Source: Deltaproteobacteria bacterium
Lineage (GTDB): Bacteria > Desulfobacterota > Desulfomonilia > UBA1062
Reading direction: 5' to 3'
Length of the DNA stretch: 64,000 nucleotides
NCBI GenBank assembly: GCA_015486075.1
Contig: WFSG01000005.1
Span: 1 to 64,000 of the forward strand
The notes below the pieces were generated by a model that was not told the origin of the DNA, made no database searches, and saw only the letters and a program-made list of their open reading frames with translations. Below are positions 16,869-26,596 of the stretch, one piece after another. Position 1 is the first letter of the stretch. Each line of letters begins with the position of its first letter. The position numbers and the translations under genes were made by a program.

Positions 16869-17840
16869 TCACCAAAATCTCTCTAAAATTGTGGTCTTGC
16901 TTGATTTTACATGCCTAACAAAGGTCTCAAATGCACCTTTGGTATCATACTTGAATTTGTATCCAAGCTCCTTCTTCAACTTCTCATTACTGGCTATCCA
17001 CGGGTAGCGTACCATGTTGAGTGCTGGACTCGGGAACTCTGTTATAAACCTTAACCTCAGGAGCCACATCAAGTTGTTCAGTGGATACAAAACGGATGCA
17101 GGTAACTTTAAAGAATAGCCACCTAGCATGTGTATCATCTCGTCAAATGTCATGGTGCCGTCAGAGGCAAGGTTGTAAGCACCGCATTTCTTCTTTTCCA
17201 GGAGCTGATATATAATCTCCACCAAGTCATCTTCGTGTATGAATTGAAAAGGTATGGTATCCCTGGGCATCAGCACAATTTTCTTCTTGAGATGCTTGGC
17301 AAGAGGATTATCAAACCCAGGGCCTACCACAAAACAGGGCCTTATAATGGTAAGGCATATATCAGGGTGGGCTTCCTGGAACTCTCTACAGACATACTCA
17401 AGTTCTTTCTTGTTCTTTGAATAAGTAAAATCATCGTTCCCCCTCAATGGGCTATCCTCTGTTAGAATAGGGGGATTATCCTCATGAAATCCGTATGCAG
17501 TTGTAGAGGAGCAATGCAGTATCTGCTTGATACCTGCCCTTTTGCATGAATCTAGCAGGTTTCTCGTACCGTTTATATTTATGTCTTCCATGAGGGCCTT
17601 GTTGTGTATGGGCGGCAGCACAAATGCTGTATGTATTACCCAGTCAAAATCTTTACCTGAAAGCAGGGGATAGAGGTCATCCCTTATATCATGCCTGATA
17701 AACCTTAACTTCTTGGAGGTATACGCAGGCACCTTGATATCAATACCCACGACTTCTTCCACGTCCTGCTTTTTATCCAGTAGCCTAACCAGGCTTGATC
17801 CGAAATACCCTCCCACTCCAGTTATGAAAACCTTTTTCAT
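16869..17840 (-). CDS. NAD-dependent epimerase/dehydratase family (extended SDR)
   Basis: An extended short-chain dehydrogenase of 323 residues with the Rossmann motif TGVGGYFG (about 6-13), the acidic NAD-selecting residue in VGIDIK, HTAFV, and the catalytic pair Y..K in FTYSKNKKELEY (about 139-150) with an upstream SSTTAYG. Nucleotide-sugar epimerases, hydroxysteroid dehydrogenase-like enzymes and dihydroflavonol reductase-like proteins all share this layout, so the substrate is not assigned. The ATG at 17840 has GAGGG five bases upstream; an earlier ATG adds four residues. Position beside the racemase and the CoA-metabolism genes hints at a hydroxy- or keto-acid/lipid substrate. Confidence 0.88.
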   Translation of the reverse strand: MKKVFITGVGGYFGSSLVRLLDKKQDVEEVVGIDIKVPAYTSKKLRFIRHDIRDDLYPLLSGKDFDWVIHTAFVLPPIHNKALMEDININGTRNLLDSCKRAGIKQILHCSSTTAYGFHEDNPPILTEDSPLRGNDDFTYSKNKKELEYVCREFQEAHPDICLTIIRPCFVVGPGFDNPLAKHLKKKIVLMPRDTIPFQFIHEDDLVEIIYQLLEKKKCGAYNLASDGTMTFDEMIHMLGGYSLKLPASVLYPLNNLMWLLRLRFITEFPSPALNMVRYPWIASNEKLKKELGYKFKYDTKGAFETFVRHVKSSKTTILERFW

Positions 17841-17915
17841 GTAATCCCTCATCCTGCTCTAAATATGGCCTTGCGGCCTTGGATCCCTCCACTATGCCCA
17901 TACAAAGATCAATAC

Positions 17916-18761
17916 CTAGAACTTCTGCTCACCTGAGCCATGGTACGGGAACAGGGATTCCGTTGCTTTCATGAGATCCTCAGGCGGGGAATTGAACGTG
18001 GAGTGCCTGCTGATCCACGGGATTCCCGCTTTCTTCATGGAAGCCAAGACCTCTGCCATCCTTACTGCCGTTGAAATAACATCAACTAGGGGCACACCAT
18101 CTACTTCGTATAACCCATTTGGATACGTCTTCTCGCATCCTGGCGCCATGTGAACCACAGGCGACAAAATGGTTCACCCAGGCACCAGCACTTCTGCTCC
18201 ATCCTTTATGCATTCCCTGGCAACTTCCTTGAACCTCTCTATTATTGGGGTTGCATCTAGAAAACCCTGGAGGAAATCATCCGTTGTAGTCTCTGTACTC
18301 CTTATGGATACAACAGAATCCTCGAACCCGTACTTTGTTACAAGCTCTTCAACGATGGGTATTGCATACTTAGAGAATGTTATAAGCCCCACCTTTCTTC
18401 CCATCATATGCGCAAACATAAGCGAATTCTGCGCCACACCTATAACCGGTATGTCCATGTACTGTCTCAACGGGTAGATGTAAGGGTCCCAGTAGCAATG
18501 GACTACAATAGCATCGTAGCCCTTACCCTTGAGGCCTCTTACTGTCTCGTAGAGTTCAAAGGAATTCCATGCATTAAGTGCGTCCCATGCAAACTCGTCA
18601 ATACCCTCAAACCCCTTCTGCATAAGGAAAAAGTCTATTTCAGTATCAGGTTCTTTTAGTTTCTTTGCATTATTGACAAAGACTTTCCCTGCAATGTCCC
18701 TGTACATCTCTTGGCTGAGATCAACTGCCATGGGCGCCACTACTGCTATCCTTTTCCCCAT
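17916..18761 (-). CDS. Asp/Glu/hydantoin racemase family protein, probable selenoprotein (in-frame UGA at 18174-18176)
   Basis: Reading through one in-frame UGA gives a full-length 281-residue member of the Asp/Glu racemase superfamily, whose members use two cysteines as acid/base on either side of a carbon acid. Cys89 lies in DAIVVHCYWDP, the first catalytic site. The UGA is codon 196 in GAEVLVPG-U-TILSPVV, exactly where relatives have the second catalytic Cys (pattern LGCT or LGCAGM). Spacing of 107 residues fits the 105 known for hydantoin racemase (Cys76/Cys181). Downstream sequence (DGVPLVDVISTAVRMAEVLA) is the intact family C-terminus in the same frame, arguing against decay. The ATG has AAGGAGG five bases upstream. 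Substrate is unknown: hydantoin, maleate-type and arylmalonate-type activities are all in this superfamily. Neighbours are the SDR and the thiolase. Confidence 0.85.
18144..18176 (-). promoter_or_regulatory. Candidate bacterial SECIS element following the UGA codon
   Basis: In the mRNA, bases 18163-18144 fold as CGCC paired with GGCG, then UGUG paired with CACA, with a single bulged U on the 3' side and an apical loop GUU. The loop begins 18 nt after the UGA. Bacterial SECIS elements recognised by SelB need a short stem-loop just downstream of the UGA with a G among the first two loop bases; the E. coli fdhF element also has a bulged U and a GU-containing loop. All these features are seen here. 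An alternative pairing, UGAACCA with UGGUUCA, also exists. Function in vivo is inferred. Confidence 0.75.
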
Positions 18762-18947
18762 AAACACCTCCTTCTTTTTTTAACCTAGCAATACAGCCAC
18801 ATAAACCCACACCTATGTCATGCAACATATGATAGAACATAACAAGAAAGTATACTATTCAGCGCTCAAGACATGAGGCTTTTTCTCGGTATTTTCCCAA
18901 GACCCTGGACCACGCATGACCTTTACGTTTTACCATGAGCCCTGCAG

Positions 18948-19014: not shown

Positions 19015-20253
19015 TTACGCCCTCTCCAGTATATGCACTGTCATGGACGCCTCTTCTACCCCTATGTTACCTCCACCGTTTTCTGTAAGGCCTATCCTGG
19101 CGCTCTCTACTTGTCTCTTACCTGCCTCTCCCCTTAATTGCTGAACAATCTCGTATATCTGGGCAAGACCTGATGCACCTATGGGGTGTCCCCTGCATTC
19201 AAGACCGCCACTTGTATTGATGGGTTTCTTGCCGCCAAGCTTGGTGGCACCCGACTCTGCAAATATACCTCCTTCTCCTTCCGGGCAGAAGCCCATAACC
19301 TCGGTTTGATGCAACTCACCATAGGCCGTTGCATCATGAAGTTCTGCGAGATCAATGTCCTCTGGCCCAAGGCCAGCCATTTCGTAGGCCTTTTTTGATA
19401 ACCTTGCCCCTATGTCAATACCATCTAGATCCCTATCCATGCCTGAGCCAAGCACAGATGCCCTGATCCTCACGGGCCTGGCATCTCTAAGTTTCTTTAG
19501 GTACGATTCAGAGCAAAGGATGGCTGCAGCTGCTCCATCGCCAACAGGTGCACACATGGGCCTAGTAAGAGGATAAGCAACAGGCCTATCCTGCAACACT
19601 TCTTCCACGGTCATTGCCATCTGGTACTGGGCAAGCGGGTTCATTGAACCATGCCAATGATTCTTGGCACTTATCACAGCCAGTTGCCTCTGGGTAGAAC
19701 CATACTTGCTCATGTGCCACCTAGCCCCCATGGCATAAGCATCCATGAATATACTCCTGTCCTGGCCAGGGGGTGTCTGACCAGGCGGAATCTCTATCTC
19801 TACCTTCTTGCTTACCTCTTCAAAAAGCTTTATATGCTCATCCAGGTGTTCAACGTCCATACAAGAGGCATATGCGCCCAGGGAAAGAGCCTTGTTCGGG
19901 TGCGAAATCTTTTCTGACCCAAGAGCAAGGACGCAGTCATACATACCTGCCCTAATCGCGGTGTAACCTAGGTGAAAGGCGGTTGAAGCCCCCGCACAAG
20001 CATTCTCACAGTTTACAATGGGTATGGCATCTATCCCCATGTGCCATAGCATTACCTCTCCCCGTATGGAATGCTGGTTTGAAAACATGCCCCAGAATGT
20101 GTTGGATACATACGCTGCCTCTATGTCCTTTTTCCCAAGACCTGCGTCTTTCAACACTAGATCCACTGCATCCCTAGCCATGCTTATAACCGTTGCATCC
20201 GGATATTTGCTAAACCGTATCATTCCAACACCTATTACATAGACATCGTTCAT
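19015..20253 (-). CDS. Thiolase family protein (SCP-x/lipid-transfer type acetyl-CoA acetyltransferase)
   Basis: A thiolase-fold enzyme of 412 residues of the sterol-carrier-protein-x type, which typically cleaves 3-ketoacyl-CoAs of branched or steroid side chains. The nucleophile is Cys86 in NCENACAGAS. The catalytic His lies in ECRGHPIGASG near the C-terminus, followed by the terminal GLTENGGGN, where this subfamily lacks the CxG cysteine of classical thiolases. The ATG at 20253 has AAAGGGG seven bases upstream; an earlier start would add 11 residues with no signal. It lies between the ferredoxin-nitroreductase gene (upstream) and the racemase (downstream) in a run of CoA-metabolism genes. 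Confidence 0.9.
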   Translation of the reverse strand: MNDVYVIGVGMIRFSKYPDATVISMARDAVDLVLKDAGLGKKDIEAAYVSNTFWGMFSNQHSIRGEVMLWHMGIDAIPIVNCENACAGASTAFHLGYTAIRAGMYDCVLALGSEKISHPNKALSLGAYASCMDVEHLDEHIKLFEEVSKKVEIEIPPGQTPPGQDRSIFMDAYAMGARWHMSKYGSTQRQLAVISAKNHWHGSMNPLAQYQMAMTVEEVLQDRPVAYPLTRPMCAPVGDGAAAAILCSESYLKKLRDARPVRIRASVLGSGMDRDLDGIDIGARLSKKAYEMAGLGPEDIDLAELHDATAYGELHQTEVMGFCPEGEGGIFAESGATKLGGKKPINTSGGLECRGHPIGASGLAQIYEIVQQLRGEAGKRQVESARIGLTENGGGNIGVEEASMTVHILERA

Positions 20254-20307
20254 ATGTATTCCCCTTTCTCCAAAGTTGTTTATCAAATCACGACTAAAAG
20301 TTCTTTA

Positions 20308-21333
20308 TCATTCTATCCATTCCACGGGTACCGGCCCTCTAGCAACAGGGTTATCAAGCTTTCCCCTTGGATAACCCACGGATATACTTGTAACCAATTC
20401 ATACGGATACTCTATGTGTAGATCCTTTTTAAGCCAAGGTAAAAACTTGATCGCGCTTGCAATAAAACCAATATAACATGTGCCAAGCCCTAGGGAATGA
20501 GCTGCCAGAACCAGATTTTGGGTTGCTATCCCTGTATCTAAGTCGGGATTGGCAATACCCCTAGAGTCAGCCAGTACATGAATGACCACTGGCGCACCCC
20601 AAGTTATTGAGCCGCCTGCCTGATGTACCTTCTCAATGGCTGCAATGGGCCTCTGGTCCATCTCGTTCACCATGAAATAGCTACTCAGAGTTATTGCAAT
20701 GTCTCGCCACTTGGTTTTACCGGCATACATCCACTTGATCATGTCAAGTAGCTTGGCACATTGTCTGTCGACCTTATCAATCACATCTCTATTCGTCACA
20801 ACAACAAACTTGCATGGCTGACCATTACCGGATGAAGGGGCAAACCTGGCCGCTTCTATTATACGATCAACCAGCTCCTTGGGCACTGGCTTCCTTCTAA
20901 AAAGCCTTATGCTCCTCCTTCTGTAAATTACCCTCTCTATATCCGTAAGGTCCTTTTCTATATCTTCAAAATCTCTTTCAAGATCTTTCTTGCCAAACGG
21001 CATGGGTGGTCGCATCTCGCCTACCTTGTCATCAGGTGTCCTGTATCTGCCGTAGAGTACCCTGTATTCTCCCCGCATCCTTATGGCATTTGTTGGGCAT
21101 ACAGCTTCACAGTTATTGCATGCTATGCAGGCTAGATCCATGCCCCTGAATCCTGTGGCAAAAGGTGTTCTTTTTTTCTCATCCCATTGTAGGCATGAGG
21201 TCGGGCATGAATCAGCGCACAACTTGCAATGTACACACTTCTCTGCATCAAACTCGAATTTAGGGAAAATTGTAGGAGGAAGATGGGCACTTGTATATCT
21301 TTCCAGAATCTCCAGGGCCTTTTCTTCTATCAT
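20308..21333 (-). CDS. Ferredoxin (2 x 4Fe-4S)-nitroreductase fusion protein
   Basis: An FMN-dependent oxidoreductase of 341 residues. The N-terminus has two 4Fe-4S binding motifs, CVHCKLCADSCPTSC and CIACNNCEAVCP (within about 30-85). After a linker, the nitroreductase domain spans about 130-335 with RRSIRLF, the FMN-binding RFAPSSGNGQP, and a C-terminal ASAIKFLPWL..GYPRGK. Such fusions are typical of strict anaerobes and probably pass ferredoxin electrons to an enoyl or other unsaturated substrate; the true acceptor is unknown. The ATG at 21333 sits eight bases after GGAGG. Its place in the acyl-CoA cluster suggests an electron-transfer or reductase step there. Confidence 0.88.
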   Translation of the reverse strand: MIEEKALEILERYTSAHLPPTIFPKFEFDAEKCVHCKLCADSCPTSCLQWDEKKRTPFATGFRGMDLACIACNNCEAVCPTNAIRMRGEYRVLYGRYRTPDDKVGEMRPPMPFGKKDLERDFEDIEKDLTDIERVIYRRRSIRLFRRKPVPKELVDRIIEAARFAPSSGNGQPCKFVVVTNRDVIDKVDRQCAKLLDMIKWMYAGKTKWRDIAITLSSYFMVNEMDQRPIAAIEKVHQAGGSITWGAPVVIHVLADSRGIANPDLDTGIATQNLVLAAHSLGLGTCYIGFIASAIKFLPWLKKDLHIEYPYELVTSISVGYPRGKLDNPVARGPVPVEWIE

Positions 21334-21397
21334 ATCATGATCCTCCTTTTTTGTATGCATGTGTTTCTGTTTTTAGACATGTTCTTGTCATAGGGTG

Positions 21398-23101
21398 TTA
21401 CTTAAAATCTTCATAACTGTAAACTCTGGGATCATCCTTCCTGAACTCTTCCCTCAAGATACGATCTAGATTCTTTTCAGATGCTGTCTTGGGTATCTCG
21501 TCCACGACCTGTATATAAGATGGAACAGCGTTTTTCTCCAGGCTGTCTTTGAGGACCTTGAATATCCTCCCTATATCTACTTCCTGACCTTCGCTGGGCA
21601 CAATAGCCGCAACTATATCACTCTCGCCGGGGGCACCGCTCTCAGCAGGTATTCCATACACGCATACATCGGTGACCTCCGGCTGCTCGCCAAGGATCTT
21701 CTCTATATACTCAGGCTGGATAAAATCTCCTTGTCTCCTCAAGCCACCACCTTTCCTAAAATCAAAGTATAGCCATCCATCTGCGTCCCTGTGGCACATA
21801 TCGCCTGATCTCTGCCAGCCCCCCCTTGTCTTTTCCTTGGATGCCTTTTTATTACCATAGTACTCGACCTCAGCCTTGCCCTGGACTGGTCTGAATATGA
21901 GTTCTCCTATCTCACCCGGTTTGCACTCCGAATCATCCTCCCTAACTATCTTCATCTCGTAGATACCTTCAGGGGGCTTTCCAAAAGATCCTACAGGGCC
22001 TTGGCCAGGTGGTTTGTGGGCAAATCCACCCTCAACAGCTGCATACCACTCATGTATCTTAACATTAAACCTCTGCTCGAATTCCTCCCATATAGCAACC
22101 GGTGTCCCAGCACTTATAACGACTCTTACCGGGTTATCTCCATCGTCAGGCCTAGGTGGTTCGCTGTAAATACCCATCATCATGCCACCTAGTAACGAGA
22201 AAGTGGTGCAGGAGTATTTTCTGCAAATGTCCCATATCCTGCTCTTTGTAAACTTTTCGCTTATGACGGCCTTGATACCTGTGGCCAGCGCAGGAAATAC
22301 CGTAACTGCCTGTGCATTTCCATGTGTAAGTGATAGCCCGGTATAGGGTATATCATCTTCCTTATAATCCCATATTGATGCGAGCATGCCGTAAAGCATG
22401 AACCTTTCTGCCTTTAGCACTACGCCCTTTGGATCACCCGTTGTCCCTGAAGTGTATATAATCTGGCTTGGCCTCTTAAAGTCTACCTCGAGCATCTCTC
22501 TTGGCAGTTCAGGACTTTCCGATGAGAGTATATCCTTTATGTCAGGGTACTCTGGTGTGGGCTCAAGGAAGTGATGTGGCTTATACACCACGCCCAAGAG
22601 GCGAACATCCTTTATTTGGCCAGAAATCTCCCTTATGTTTTCCAGAAATTCAGCCGCGACAATTAGGCCCTTTGCATTGGAATTCTTTATCTGGTAGGCT
22701 AGTTTCTGTCCTTTGGATCTGGGATCTATGGGCACTACAATTGCTCCGATTGTAAGTGCTGCAAACATTGCGTACAAAACTTCCGGGTGATTTCTCATTA
22801 CAAGGGCAAAGGTATCACCCTTACCTATACCGTTACCGACAAGGACGCGTGCCAAGCGGTTCGAGTTCTCAAACAGATCCCCCATGCTAATTTTTTCATC
22901 CGAACCATCAGTATTGACAAAGATAAACGCCTCCTTGGCCGGATCAATGTTGCTAAGACCTAGAATCCTAAACATTGGAAGCCTGTCTATATCCACAAAA
23001 ACCTCCTTCCCTATATCAGATATCTTATATCCAGCTACGTTATTACCTTGCCTCCCGGTGGCGAACCTTATGTTTCTAGCGTATCCACGCCGGCCTATCA
23101 A
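21398..23101 (-). CDS. AMP-dependent acyl-CoA synthetase/ligase
   Basis: An ANL-superfamily ligase of 567 residues that adenylates a carboxylic acid and transfers it to CoA. The P-loop signature IIYTSGTTGDPKG lies near residue 213. The aryl/acyl-binding region includes HEWYAAVEGG (A5-like), then SGDMCHRDADGWLYFDFRKGG and a C-terminal catalytic Lys candidate in KTASEKNLDRILRE. The FDFRKGGGLRR hinge is a variant of the usual DR.K(D/G) motif. The acid is not evident; aromatic, crotonobetaine-like or fatty acids are all plausible. It follows the acyl-CoA dehydrogenase gene by 42 bases. Confidence 0.93.
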   Translation of the reverse strand: MIGRRGYARNIRFATGRQGNNVAGYKISDIGKEVFVDIDRLPMFRILGLSNIDPAKEAFIFVNTDGSDEKISMGDLFENSNRLARVLVGNGIGKGDTFALVMRNHPEVLYAMFAALTIGAIVVPIDPRSKGQKLAYQIKNSNAKGLIVAAEFLENIREISGQIKDVRLLGVVYKPHHFLEPTPEYPDIKDILSSESPELPREMLEVDFKRPSQIIYTSGTTGDPKGVVLKAERFMLYGMLASIWDYKEDDIPYTGLSLTHGNAQAVTVFPALATGIKAVISEKFTKSRIWDICRKYSCTTFSLLGGMMMGIYSEPPRPDDGDNPVRVVISAGTPVAIWEEFEQRFNVKIHEWYAAVEGGFAHKPPGQGPVGSFGKPPEGIYEMKIVREDDSECKPGEIGELIFRPVQGKAEVEYYGNKKASKEKTRGGWQRSGDMCHRDADGWLYFDFRKGGGLRRQGDFIQPEYIEKILGEQPEVTDVCVYGIPAESGAPGESDIVAAIVPSEGQEVDIGRIFKVLKDSLEKNAVPSYIQVVDEIPKTASEKNLDRILREEFRKDDPRVYSYEDFK

Positions 23102-23143: not shown

Positions 23144-24430
23144 TTACCAACCAGCGCCAGTTCCGTAGCCAAGATCTTCGGAAAGGATTTTGTTGGCAAT
23201 GACAAGGGAAAGGCTCTCGTTTGACCCATCCTCTATTAGGGTTGACCTGATGTCTCTGAACAGTTTTTCTATTACATACTCTTTGCTTAGTCCATATCCG
23301 CCAAAGATTTGCATTGCATCGCATGCAACCTCGAATGCCGTTCTCGTGCAAAAGACCTTGGACGTGACCGAGTACTCTGTCCTTGGCGGATACGATGTCA
23401 TGTTGTAGTTCATCACCGCCCTAGAAAGCTGTCTTGAGGCCTCTACCTTTATGAACATGTTTGCAAGCTTTGCCTGTACATCCTGGTGCTCACAAATAGG
23501 TCTTCCACCTTGCACTCTCTCCCTTGAATACGTCAATGCCTCTTCAAAGGCTGCCCTTGCACCACCAAGGGCAAAGGTCGCCATACCTGCGTTGGCAACA
23601 CCTAGTATTAGGGATGTCATCTCCTCGTAGCTTTCCTGATCGCATATTACCCATTCATCGGGTATACGAGCATTGTCAAAGTATATCTCTCCCTGGGGAA
23701 GTTCTCTCTGCCCCAGCTTGTTCAAAGGCTTTGCCTTGGTTACCCCCTCCTGTGTTAGGTCAACTATAGCTATAGCACCCCCTGCCATGCCCATGGATGG
23801 GTCTATACCAAAAAATAGAGCTGCCTGCGAGGCCGTTGGCCCGCACGATACCCATGCAGACTTCTGGCCGTTTATGATCCACTCGTCTCCCTTTTTCTTT
23901 CCAACGACCTGATGCGTTATCTTGGGATCACGGAAAAAGGGCGTCTCTGACATAAGAATGTCAGAACCATGTGCTGGCTCTGTTATTGCCCAACAACCCG
24001 TTAACTTGCAATCCATGTCCTCCACAAAGGGTTTTATTATGGTCTCCTGAAGTTCTGGCCTTTCTGCAGCCACAATAGTACCAAAAAACGTCGGGAAATA
24101 ATCCACTCCAAGGGCAACGGCAAACCCAATACTTGCATAACCAAACTCCTCACACAGTATATGAAAAGACATTGGATCAAGCCCAATCCCGCCGAATGCC
24201 TCGGGGATAAAGGCCGTGTGATAACCGTTTCTGTGCATCTTTTTCATGGTTTCCCAGAACAGGGACCCTTCTTGTATCACCTCTTCCGGCGTCATCTTGT
24301 CAAGCTCAACCGCTGCTGGTCTTAGGTTCTCCACCGCGAATCTCCTCAAGGTCTGCTTCAAGGCCTCGTGTTCATCAGTTAATTCTAGAGCCATTGAATC
24401 TAAATCTAGGTAGTCATATGCCATGTCCAA
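23144..24430 (-). CDS. Acyl-CoA dehydrogenase
   Basis: A flavoprotein of 428 residues that introduces a trans-2,3 double bond into an acyl-CoA and passes electrons to ETF. Family features include the FAD/substrate segment CWAITEPAHGSD (about 142-153), GQKSAWVS, RIPDEWVI, the C-terminal FGGYGLSKEYVIEKLFRDIRSTLIEDGSNE (about 378-407) and a helical N-terminal domain. An extended N-terminal stretch and the RSTLIEDGSNE ending suggest a medium/long-chain or specialised ACAD; the specificity is unknown. A strong terminator separates it from the SCP2 gene upstream, so the transcription unit from here to the racemase may start at this gene. Confidence 0.93.
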   Translation of the reverse strand: MDMAYDYLDLDSMALELTDEHEALKQTLRRFAVENLRPAAVELDKMTPEEVIQEGSLFWETMKKMHRNGYHTAFIPEAFGGIGLDPMSFHILCEEFGYASIGFAVALGVDYFPTFFGTIVAAERPELQETIIKPFVEDMDCKLTGCWAITEPAHGSDILMSETPFFRDPKITHQVVGKKKGDEWIINGQKSAWVSCGPTASQAALFFGIDPSMGMAGGAIAIVDLTQEGVTKAKPLNKLGQRELPQGEIYFDNARIPDEWVICDQESYEEMTSLILGVANAGMATFALGGARAAFEEALTYSRERVQGGRPICEHQDVQAKLANMFIKVEASRQLSRAVMNYNMTSYPPRTEYSVTSKVFCTRTAFEVACDAMQIFGGYGLSKEYVIEKLFRDIRSTLIEDGSNESLSLVIANKILSEDLGYGTGAGW

Positions 24431-24562: not shown

Positions 24563-24946
24563 CTAAAGGCCAAATTTTGCCATGTGAGAGGGATAAAGTT
24601 CGTAAGCCGGCCTTACAACAGGCAAGAGTTTCATCACCTTGGCAACATTACCCTTTGCCTTAATCTTTCTCGTTGCAAGGGCAACTGGCAAACTCAGCTT
24701 TTTGGTCCAGAAGGCATGACAAGTATCTCCGGAGAGCTTCATTATAATATCTGCCTTCATGTCCTGGGTACCAAGCTTTACCCCTTCTGGAGAAACCCAT
24801 ATGGTAGCCGGAGGATCAAATATCTCAAACTTTATTACAATATCAGCCTTTTTGAGGGGGATCATGAAATCGTCCCTCTTTGCAAGCTCCTGCCAGAAAC
24901 TACCTAGGGATTCGTACAAAAAATCAGTATCCTTGAAAACAGCCAT
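24563..24946 (-). CDS. SCP2 sterol-binding domain protein
   Basis: A 127-residue soluble protein consisting of one SCP2 domain, a fold with a hydrophobic tunnel that binds acyl-CoAs, fatty acids or sterols. The pattern FEIFDPPATIWVSPEGVKLG, DIIMKLSGDTCHAFWTKKLSLPVALATRKIKAKGNVAKVMKLLP is typical, including the GN..K.MKL motif. Two other genes here, the SCP-x-like thiolase and the acyl-CoA dehydrogenase, are natural partners for a carrier of bulky acyl-CoAs. GAGGAGGT precedes the ATG. Its own terminator makes it a separate unit with a 261-base leader region. Confidence 0.87.
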   Translation of the reverse strand: MAVFKDTDFLYESLGSFWQELAKRDDFMIPLKKADIVIKFEIFDPPATIWVSPEGVKLGTQDMKADIIMKLSGDTCHAFWTKKLSLPVALATRKIKAKGNVAKVMKLLPVVRPAYELYPSHMAKFGL

Positions 24947-25207: not shown

Positions 25208-26596
25208 TCAATCAAGATACCTCTGCTTTTTCCTGTATAGGGTAGATAGGTCAAGGCCGGACAACTCTGATGCCTTTTTGATATCATTGCCTGTAGAGGC
25301 CAGCAAGCCCTTTAGGTATGACCTTTCAAATTCGGCCTTGGCCCTCTCGTATAGCAACAAATCTATTGTACTGCTCTCATCTTTCAGCGTATTACCCCTG
25401 TATTCCAGCGGCAAGGAATCAACATCAACGCTCTGGGAAGGGTTAAAAACCACTATGCGGTCAACGAGATTCTGCAATTCCCTCACATTACCTTCCCACG
25501 GACTAGCAAGCAAGGCTTCTATTGCCTTCTGGGAAAATACCTTGGTTTTAAGGCCGTGCTTTTTACAGGAAAGTCGCATAAAGTGATCAAGAAGCACGGG
25601 TATATCCTCTGGCCGTTTCCTTAATGACGGGACATTGATCCTTATCACGTTTATCCTGTAAAACAGGTCTTTCCTGAAAGACCCTGTATTCACCAATTCC
25701 CTGAGATCCTTGTTTGTAGCTGAAATCAGCCTGAAATTTACATGTCTAGCATTAGAGCTCCCAACACGCCTGATCTCGAAGTCCTGTAGCACGCGAAGCA
25801 GTTTTACCTGGAAAGACGGAGTTGTCTCTCCTATCTCATCAAGGAAAACTGTCCCTCCCTTTGCTGCTTCAAAATACCCCAGAGTCGTTTTTTCGGCACC
25901 TGTAAAGGCCCCCTTCTCGTGGCCAAACAGAGTGCTTTCGAGAAGGTTTTCCGGTACTGCACCACAGTTAACGGCAAAAAAAGGCAATCCCTTTCTGCTG
26001 CTACTTTCATGTATGTAGCGAGCAACAAGCTCCTTACCCACTCCGGTCTCACCCTCAATCAATACAGGCATGTCCATCACCGCTGCCCTAGATGCCACTT
26101 CCATGACCATTGCCATGGACTTGCTCTTATAAACAATCTTGCTCAAATCAGCATTGTAACGTACCTGCTGCCTCAACTGAAAATTTTCTTCCAAGAGCCT
26201 CCTTCTTTCCAGACAGTTCTTGATATCTATCTTTACCTTCTCCATGCTCGCAAAGGGTTTTAAGAAGAAATCGTTGGCTCCAAGACGCATGGCCTCAATA
26301 ACACTGTCAATATCACCGTAAGCCGAGATCATTATGATCATGGTGTCACTATCCTGCTCCCGGATCCTCTTGAGAACATCAAGACCGCCCAGACCAGGCA
26401 TCTTGAGATCCATTATTACAAGGTCAAACCCGCCCGGTGACCATAATTCAAGGGCCTGCTCCCCGTTCTTTGCCAAGGCCACCCTATAATTCTCCTCTGT
26501 TAGGATGGAGTTAAAGTACTCCAGTGTGTAGTCCTCGTCATCAACGACAAGCACGCTGATCTTTCCTCTATCCATATCCATAAAGTTCTCACTCAT
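25208..26596 (-). CDS. Sigma-54-dependent response regulator (NtrC family)
   Basis: A transcription activator of 462 residues. The receiver domain (about 12-125) has phospho-Asp63 in VIMDLKMPG and the Lys in FLKPF. The AAA+ domain (about 145-380) has Walker A GETGVGKE, the sigma-54-contacting GAFTGA loop in FGHEKGAFTGAE, Walker B GGTVFLDEIGE and the R finger region FRKDLFYRIN. A C-terminal Fis-type helix-turn-helix follows (KKASELSGLDLSTLYRK). It overlaps the kinase gene upstream by four bases, so the two form a cognate pair. No canonical sigma-54 promoter was found close by, so its targets are unknown. Confidence 0.96.
   Translation of the reverse strand: MSENFMDMDRGKISVLVVDDEDYTLEYFNSILTEENYRVALAKNGEQALELWSPGGFDLVIMDLKMPGLGGLDVLKRIREQDSDTMIIMISAYGDIDSVIEAMRLGANDFFLKPFASMEKVKIDIKNCLERRRLLEENFQLRQQVRYNADLSKIVYKSKSMAMVMEVASRAAVMDMPVLIEGETGVGKELVARYIHESSSRKGLPFFAVNCGAVPENLLESTLFGHEKGAFTGAEKTTLGYFEAAKGGTVFLDEIGETTPSFQVKLLRVLQDFEIRRVGSSNARHVNFRLISATNKDLRELVNTGSFRKDLFYRINVIRINVPSLRKRPEDIPVLLDHFMRLSCKKHGLKTKVFSQKAIEALLASPWEGNVRELQNLVDRIVVFNPSQSVDVDSLPLEYRGNTLKDESSTIDLLLYERAKAEFERSYLKGLLASTGNDIKKASELSGLDLSTLYRKKQRYLD

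Follow-up and report, generated by a model that had tools for sequence, protein, structure and literature searches.

A gene on the minus strand of the window (by which we mean the whole stretch of DNA analysed, 64,000 nucleotides from a Deltaproteobacteria bacterium) very probably encodes a selenocysteine (Sec) protein, its in-frame UGA at 18176-18174 being read as Sec; this reading is inferred from sequence, without protein or selenium evidence. The results of our analysis strongly support the inference that this is a new family of selenoproteins belonging to a known superfamily, that of the Asp/Glu/hydantoin racemases, with a Cys89/Sec196 pair whose chemistry is inferred and not shown. The best explanation as a whole, which we hold with moderate confidence, is that of a racemase-fold selenoprotein in which Sec196 and Cys89 would carry out proton transfer. 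The features of the gene are the following:

17916..18761, minus strand: putative Sec-containing gene of the Asp/Glu/hydantoin racemase family (281 residues with the UGA read as Sec; single TGA, PF01177 match across the UGA, allantoin-racemase fold)
18174..18176, minus strand: UGA codon of the predicted Sec196, where the family has its second catalytic Cys (TGA also in G001, L001 and L057; the nearest homologues without UGA have Cys)
18495..18497, minus strand: codon of Cys89, first catalytic Cys position (the aligned Cys is Ser in 3qvk; nearly invariant in 24 homologues)
18135..18137, minus strand: codon of Cys209, a possible resolving Cys (from the alignment: present in the UGA members, replaced by Ala in the nearest homologues that have Cys at position 196)
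18767..18773, minus strand: Shine-Dalgarno AAGGAGG (from the sequence)

The gene starts at 18761 and ends at 17916, its ATG lying 3' of AAGAAGGAGG, and the sole in-frame TGA is found at residue 196. Translated through the UGA, the protein matches PF01177 (Asp/Glu/Hydantoin racemase) with 100.4 bits (E 1.6e-28; curated cut-off 31 bits) over residues 37-236, the UGA falling inside the match, and we regard its membership of the Asp/Glu/hydantoin racemase superfamily as practically certain. Its best solved relatives by sequence are the allantoin racemase of K. pneumoniae (3qvj), the hydantoin racemase of P. horikoshii (2eq5) and the fungal epimerase OpaE; the sequence-best enzymes again come first when the AlphaFold2 model of the read-through protein (pLDDT 88.8, pTM 0.88) is compared with the PDB, 3qvj being the top match (E 3.2e-16, TM 0.70/0.80). 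No NCBIfam equivalog was found for the window protein, and weak NCBIfam matches to MtaA/CmuA methyltransferases near residues 166-199 (E about 0.01-0.1) were taken as chance.

In the alignment, the two cysteines of 3qvj that are replaced by Ser in 3qvk stand opposite Cys89 and residue 196; the catalytic cysteines of KpAllR are Cys79 and Cys184, with Cys90 and Cys199 as their equivalents in OpaE (PMC12661438). Both columns are nearly invariant Cys among 24 aligned homologues (UGA entered as C), and when tested for the catalytic cysteine pair the protein has Cys89 at the first position and UGA/Sec instead of Cys at the second. The allantoin racemases of K. pneumoniae (3qvj) and P. fluorescens (5lfd) and the hydantoin racemase of P. 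horikoshii (2eq5) share with it PF01177, the fold, the domain arrangement and catalytic positions about 105 residues apart, whereas the window protein has Sec for the second Cys, only about 20% identity to them and an insertion of 12-14 residues after the Sec site. The sequence-only reading had described a frame intact apart from one UGA, preceded by a normal start codon and Shine-Dalgarno, a UGA at the second catalytic Cys with Cys89 as the first, and a C-terminal part past the UGA that still matches the family. Each of these descriptions stands: the 281 residues contain one TGA only, the ATG has a good Shine-Dalgarno upstream, the alignment with 3qvj/3qvk agrees (spacing 107 versus 105) and the PF01177 match runs across the UGA to residue 236.

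TGA occurs at the identical codon, in frames that are otherwise open, in L001 (genome G366, 62% identical) and L057 (genome G420, 60%), which belong to a class other than that of the window and to two different families, and also in a fragmentary copy from the same-genus genome G001 (L002/L012/L060). The closest UGA-free homologues, L028 (42% identical) and L029 (48%, matched part only), carry Cys at the site (AEVLIPGCGLLSPALRLAPGA and AEVLIPGCGLMSPALRLAPGA, respectively, versus AEVLVPGUTILSPVVHMAPGC in the window), as do most UGA-free homologues at the position of residue 196. The three full-length UGA proteins group in a single clade of the maximum-likelihood tree (100/99), and L028 is the sister of this clade (99/98). 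The UGA form spans three genera and two classes, in a clade that is small (four genomes); class-wide searches centred on the genome of the window, on G366 and on G234 revealed no UGA members besides those of G001, G366 and G420, viral contigs contained no relative, and in the plasmid collection the best among the matches listed were at most 30% identical. (The G001 copy is split over two contig ends, L060 1-548 and L061/L016 1-300, and shows two deletions, an apparent one of 1 nt and another of about 23 nt, that reflect either draft error or a gene being lost.)

Substitution patterns indicate that the coding sequence past the UGA is under purifying selection, with dN 0.015 and dS 0.658 between the window and G001, and dN 0.076 and dS 0.435 between L001 and L057; for the pair of the window and L001, the synonymous sites have reached saturation, and pN is lower after the UGA (0.182) than before it (0.288). 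These data bear on the possibility that there is no selenoprotein here at all, an ordinary racemase gene having acquired the UGA by nonsense mutation or by an error of sequencing, or the gene consisting of two separate pieces. The apparent frameshifts at the contig ends of the G001 copy lend this some weight, as they imply that gene loss occurs or that the draft is poor; however, the same TGA is present in independent assemblies and at 60-62% identity, dN/dS is low past it, no intact Cys copy exists within the UGA clade and the Sec machinery is present in the window genome, and we consider this explanation highly improbable. Moreover, 80 of the 281 codons of the window gene are one step from a stop and it is the catalytic-Cys codon that is UGA in diverged lineages, which therefore cannot be ascribed to chance.

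The window genome, to which this search was confined (the genomes of L001 and L057 are not covered), contains selA (531 bits), selB (363 bits), selD (350 bits) and a tRNA-Sec or selC with a tca anticodon (77 bits). Global reassignment of UGA is ruled out, for 22 of the 48 ORFs of at least 150 residues end in TGA. (The selD gene of this genome, G000:C41:95950-96858, has one in-frame TGA and its predicted product is probably a selenoprotein itself.) According to the sequence-only reading, Sec insertion would have been refuted by absence of selB, selC and selD from the genome, by homologues all lacking Cys at the position or by a sequencing error at 18174-18176. None of the three was encountered: selA, selB, selC and selD were all found, Cys is present in L028, L029 and most other homologues with UGA in G001, L001 and L057, and an error is not supported because the UGA recurs in independent assemblies. 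That a random nonsense mutation is unlikely, as had also been argued, is borne out by TGA at the same codon in diverged lineages. Conserved UGA, Cys in homologues and sel genes together give strong support to the selenocysteine reading.

Downstream of the UGA we identified a candidate for the RNA element directing Sec insertion:

18136..18171, minus strand: candidate bacterial SECIS stem-loop (begins 2 nt past the UGA; GUU apical loop at a distance of 18 nt from that codon; the four UGA genes fold alike)

In the window it folds as UGAAC(CAUUUUG)U(CGCC)(UGUG)GUU(CACA)U(GGCG)C(CAGGAUG), and its energy ranges from -15.9 to -16.6 kcal/mol among the four UGA genes. All 52 pair cells are kept across these genes; four pairs have changed on one side and none on both, so that covariation is not demonstrated. 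The bSECIS constraints (PMC13188914) are met by the stem-loop in all four genes but also, in our control, by 8% of the 2072 TGAs of the window, a proportion that falls to 0.2% when an energy as low is demanded. The element thus provides consistent support for Sec insertion, not proof. A longer fold including bases before the UGA gave stronger energies, yet its structures differ among the four genes, and for this reason the downstream-only stem-loop is preferred. The Rfam model SECIS_1 (RF00031) had no match in the genome, nor any in the control genomes, so that its absence carries no weight.

The sequence-only reading knew of no described Sec member of this superfamily, and the sources consulted agree with it: there is no racemase entry and no PF01177 member in the 2026 inventory, which covers 119 families of prokaryotic selenoproteins (PMC13188914), and no racemase entry in the deep-Sep paper (PMC12013277) or in the 2022 selenoprotein review (PMC9312934). 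A racemase review mentions selenium in inhibitors only (PMC8142540), and full-text searches on selenocysteine or selenoproteins combined with the Asp/Glu/hydantoin racemase family yielded no description. The UGSC family (NF041046) was considered as the parent family and rejected (hhalign probability 1.4 against the racemase alignment, no NCBIfam match); its selenoproteins are likewise small, Sec-containing bacterial proteins found in the same phylum, but their motif is different and they show no profile similarity to the racemase alignment. The glycine and proline reductase selenoproteins GrdB/PrdB (PF07355) are also Sec enzymes that act on small amino acids (PMC13188914), but they belong to another Pfam family, with a UxxC motif, and the window protein has no PF07355 match. 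(Genome G073, from the same phylum, has about 20 UGSC matches, most with one in-frame TGA in open frames of approximately 560-640 residues and nearly all below the curated cut-off, an apparent expansion of UGSC-domain selenoproteins.)

The Sec gene lies in a run of genes on the same strand, with an SDR downstream and the genes from SCP2-like protein to thiolase upstream:

16869..17852, minus strand: NAD-dependent epimerase/SDR, next gene downstream (Pfam Epimerase; 88% identical in G001)
19015..20286, minus strand: thiolase of SCP-x/lipid-transfer type, conserved neighbour (Pfam Thiolase_C_1 and Thiolase_N; 60% identical copy near the L057 Sec gene)
20308..21360, minus strand: ferredoxin-nitroreductase (Pfam Nitroreductase and Fer4)
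21398..23101, minus strand: acyl-CoA ligase (Pfam AMP-binding; in L001 and L057 the Sec gene has ligases of another type close by)
23144..24430, minus strand: probable acyl-CoA dehydrogenase (ORF reading only, no family search)
24563..24946, minus strand: SCP2-like protein, conserved neighbour (Pfam SCP2; 38-39% identical copies in L001 and L057)

In L057 a thiolase (60%), an SCP2-like protein (39%), a PaaK-like CoA ligase and two amidohydrolases are found within about 8 kb of the Sec gene, and in L001 an SCP2-like protein (38%) and a CoA ligase are kept near it. The shared neighbours point to breakdown of an acid after its activation to a CoA ester, with no substrate assignment beyond that. 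A large TPR/sigma-54 activator adjoins the Sec gene in both L001 (3953-7087) and L057 (1821-4922), and the NtrC-type regulator of the window (25208-26596) is about 40% identical to these activators in the shared region. The gene directly after the Sec racemase in L057 (1083-1781) codes for a putative redox protein of the C_GCAxxG_C_C family (PF09719), for which the 2026 inventory lists selenoprotein forms (PMC13188914); it may bear on the redox alternative considered below.

In the racemase superfamily two cysteines serve as base and acid in a 1,1-proton transfer, and EcL-DER, which has an unequal Thr/Cys pair, catalyses a reaction reported to be one-way (PMC8142540, PMC12661438). From this two-Cys mechanism and the one-way behaviour of unequal pairs it is to be expected that Sec196 would be ionised, that Cys89 would act as the donor and that one direction would be favoured. 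EcL-DER and similar Asp/Glu racemases thus resemble the window protein in having an unequal catalytic pair, even if in EcL-DER it is the first Cys that has become Thr whereas here it is the second that has become Sec.

The selenol group has a lower pKa than the thiol. In the mechanism we propose, the ribosome would read the UGA as Sec by means of SelA, SelB, tRNA-Sec and SelD together with the stem-loop located 2 nt after the codon, and Sec196, in place of the second catalytic Cys, would stand opposite Cys89, on the other side of the cleft that separates the half-domains. We infer a 1,1-proton transfer that proceeds stepwise on a carbon adjacent to a carbonyl, in which the Sec196 selenolate, ionised at neutral pH, would take a proton and the Cys89 thiol would return one on the other face; one reaction direction would be favoured because the Sec and Cys side chains differ in acidity. 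The substrate would probably be one of the intermediates in the acyl-CoA degradation pathway encoded nearby, a weak inference from gene context, and the most likely reaction is inferred to be racemisation, epimerisation or isomerisation of such an acyl-pathway intermediate, with a directional bias due to the unequal pair. Although activity has not been shown, we infer that proton transfer is somewhat more probable than redox chemistry; the further proposition, of a non-redox use of Sec as general acid/base of a racemase or epimerase that needs no cofactor, with the reaction direction set by the Cys/Sec pair, seems to us evenly balanced.

The same selenoprotein could alternatively work by redox or nucleophilic chemistry, with Sec196 attacking or reducing the substrate and being regenerated by way of a selenenylsulfide formed with Cys209 (or Cys89), so that the fold would be re-used reductively. 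The best evidence for this is Cys209 itself, which lies 13 residues past Sec, is common to all UGA members and is replaced by Ala in the closest Cys homologues; in addition, a ferredoxin-nitroreductase gene is nearby in the window and a redox function is presumed for most known selenoproteins (PMC13188914). Nevertheless, both racemase catalytic positions and the whole fold are kept, and the nitroreductase is not seen in the L001 or L057 stretches examined, leaving the redox alternative possible but rather unlikely. We give still less credence to a Sec variant of the arylmalonate decarboxylase or maleate isomerase type, that is, a decarboxylase or cis-trans isomerase with Sec196 as the proton donor. 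Both kinds of enzyme appear among the fold matches (3ixl, 3dg9, 4fq7, 2xed), and the second Cys of arylmalonate decarboxylase, Cys188, is its sole proton donor (PMC4996985); but decarboxylases have Gly at the first position (PMC4996985), which is Cys89 in the window gene and Cys in the UGA members covering the site, and allantoin and hydantoin racemases match better in both sequence and fold. The shift towards redox or decarboxylation that the sequence-only reading had attributed to Sec remains untested, and a racemase or epimerase with an unequal pair is at least as likely.

Returning to the proton-transfer reading, Sec is costly to make and its known uses are mostly in redox enzymes or as a metal ligand. 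Recognition of the Sec racemase family would also enlarge the set of selenoprotein families by one that automatic annotation cuts at residue 195. If Sec does function in the proton-transfer pair of a racemase fold, the family would offer a natural Cys/Sec pair beside Cys/Cys relatives, and with it a direct test of Sec in acid/base catalysis.
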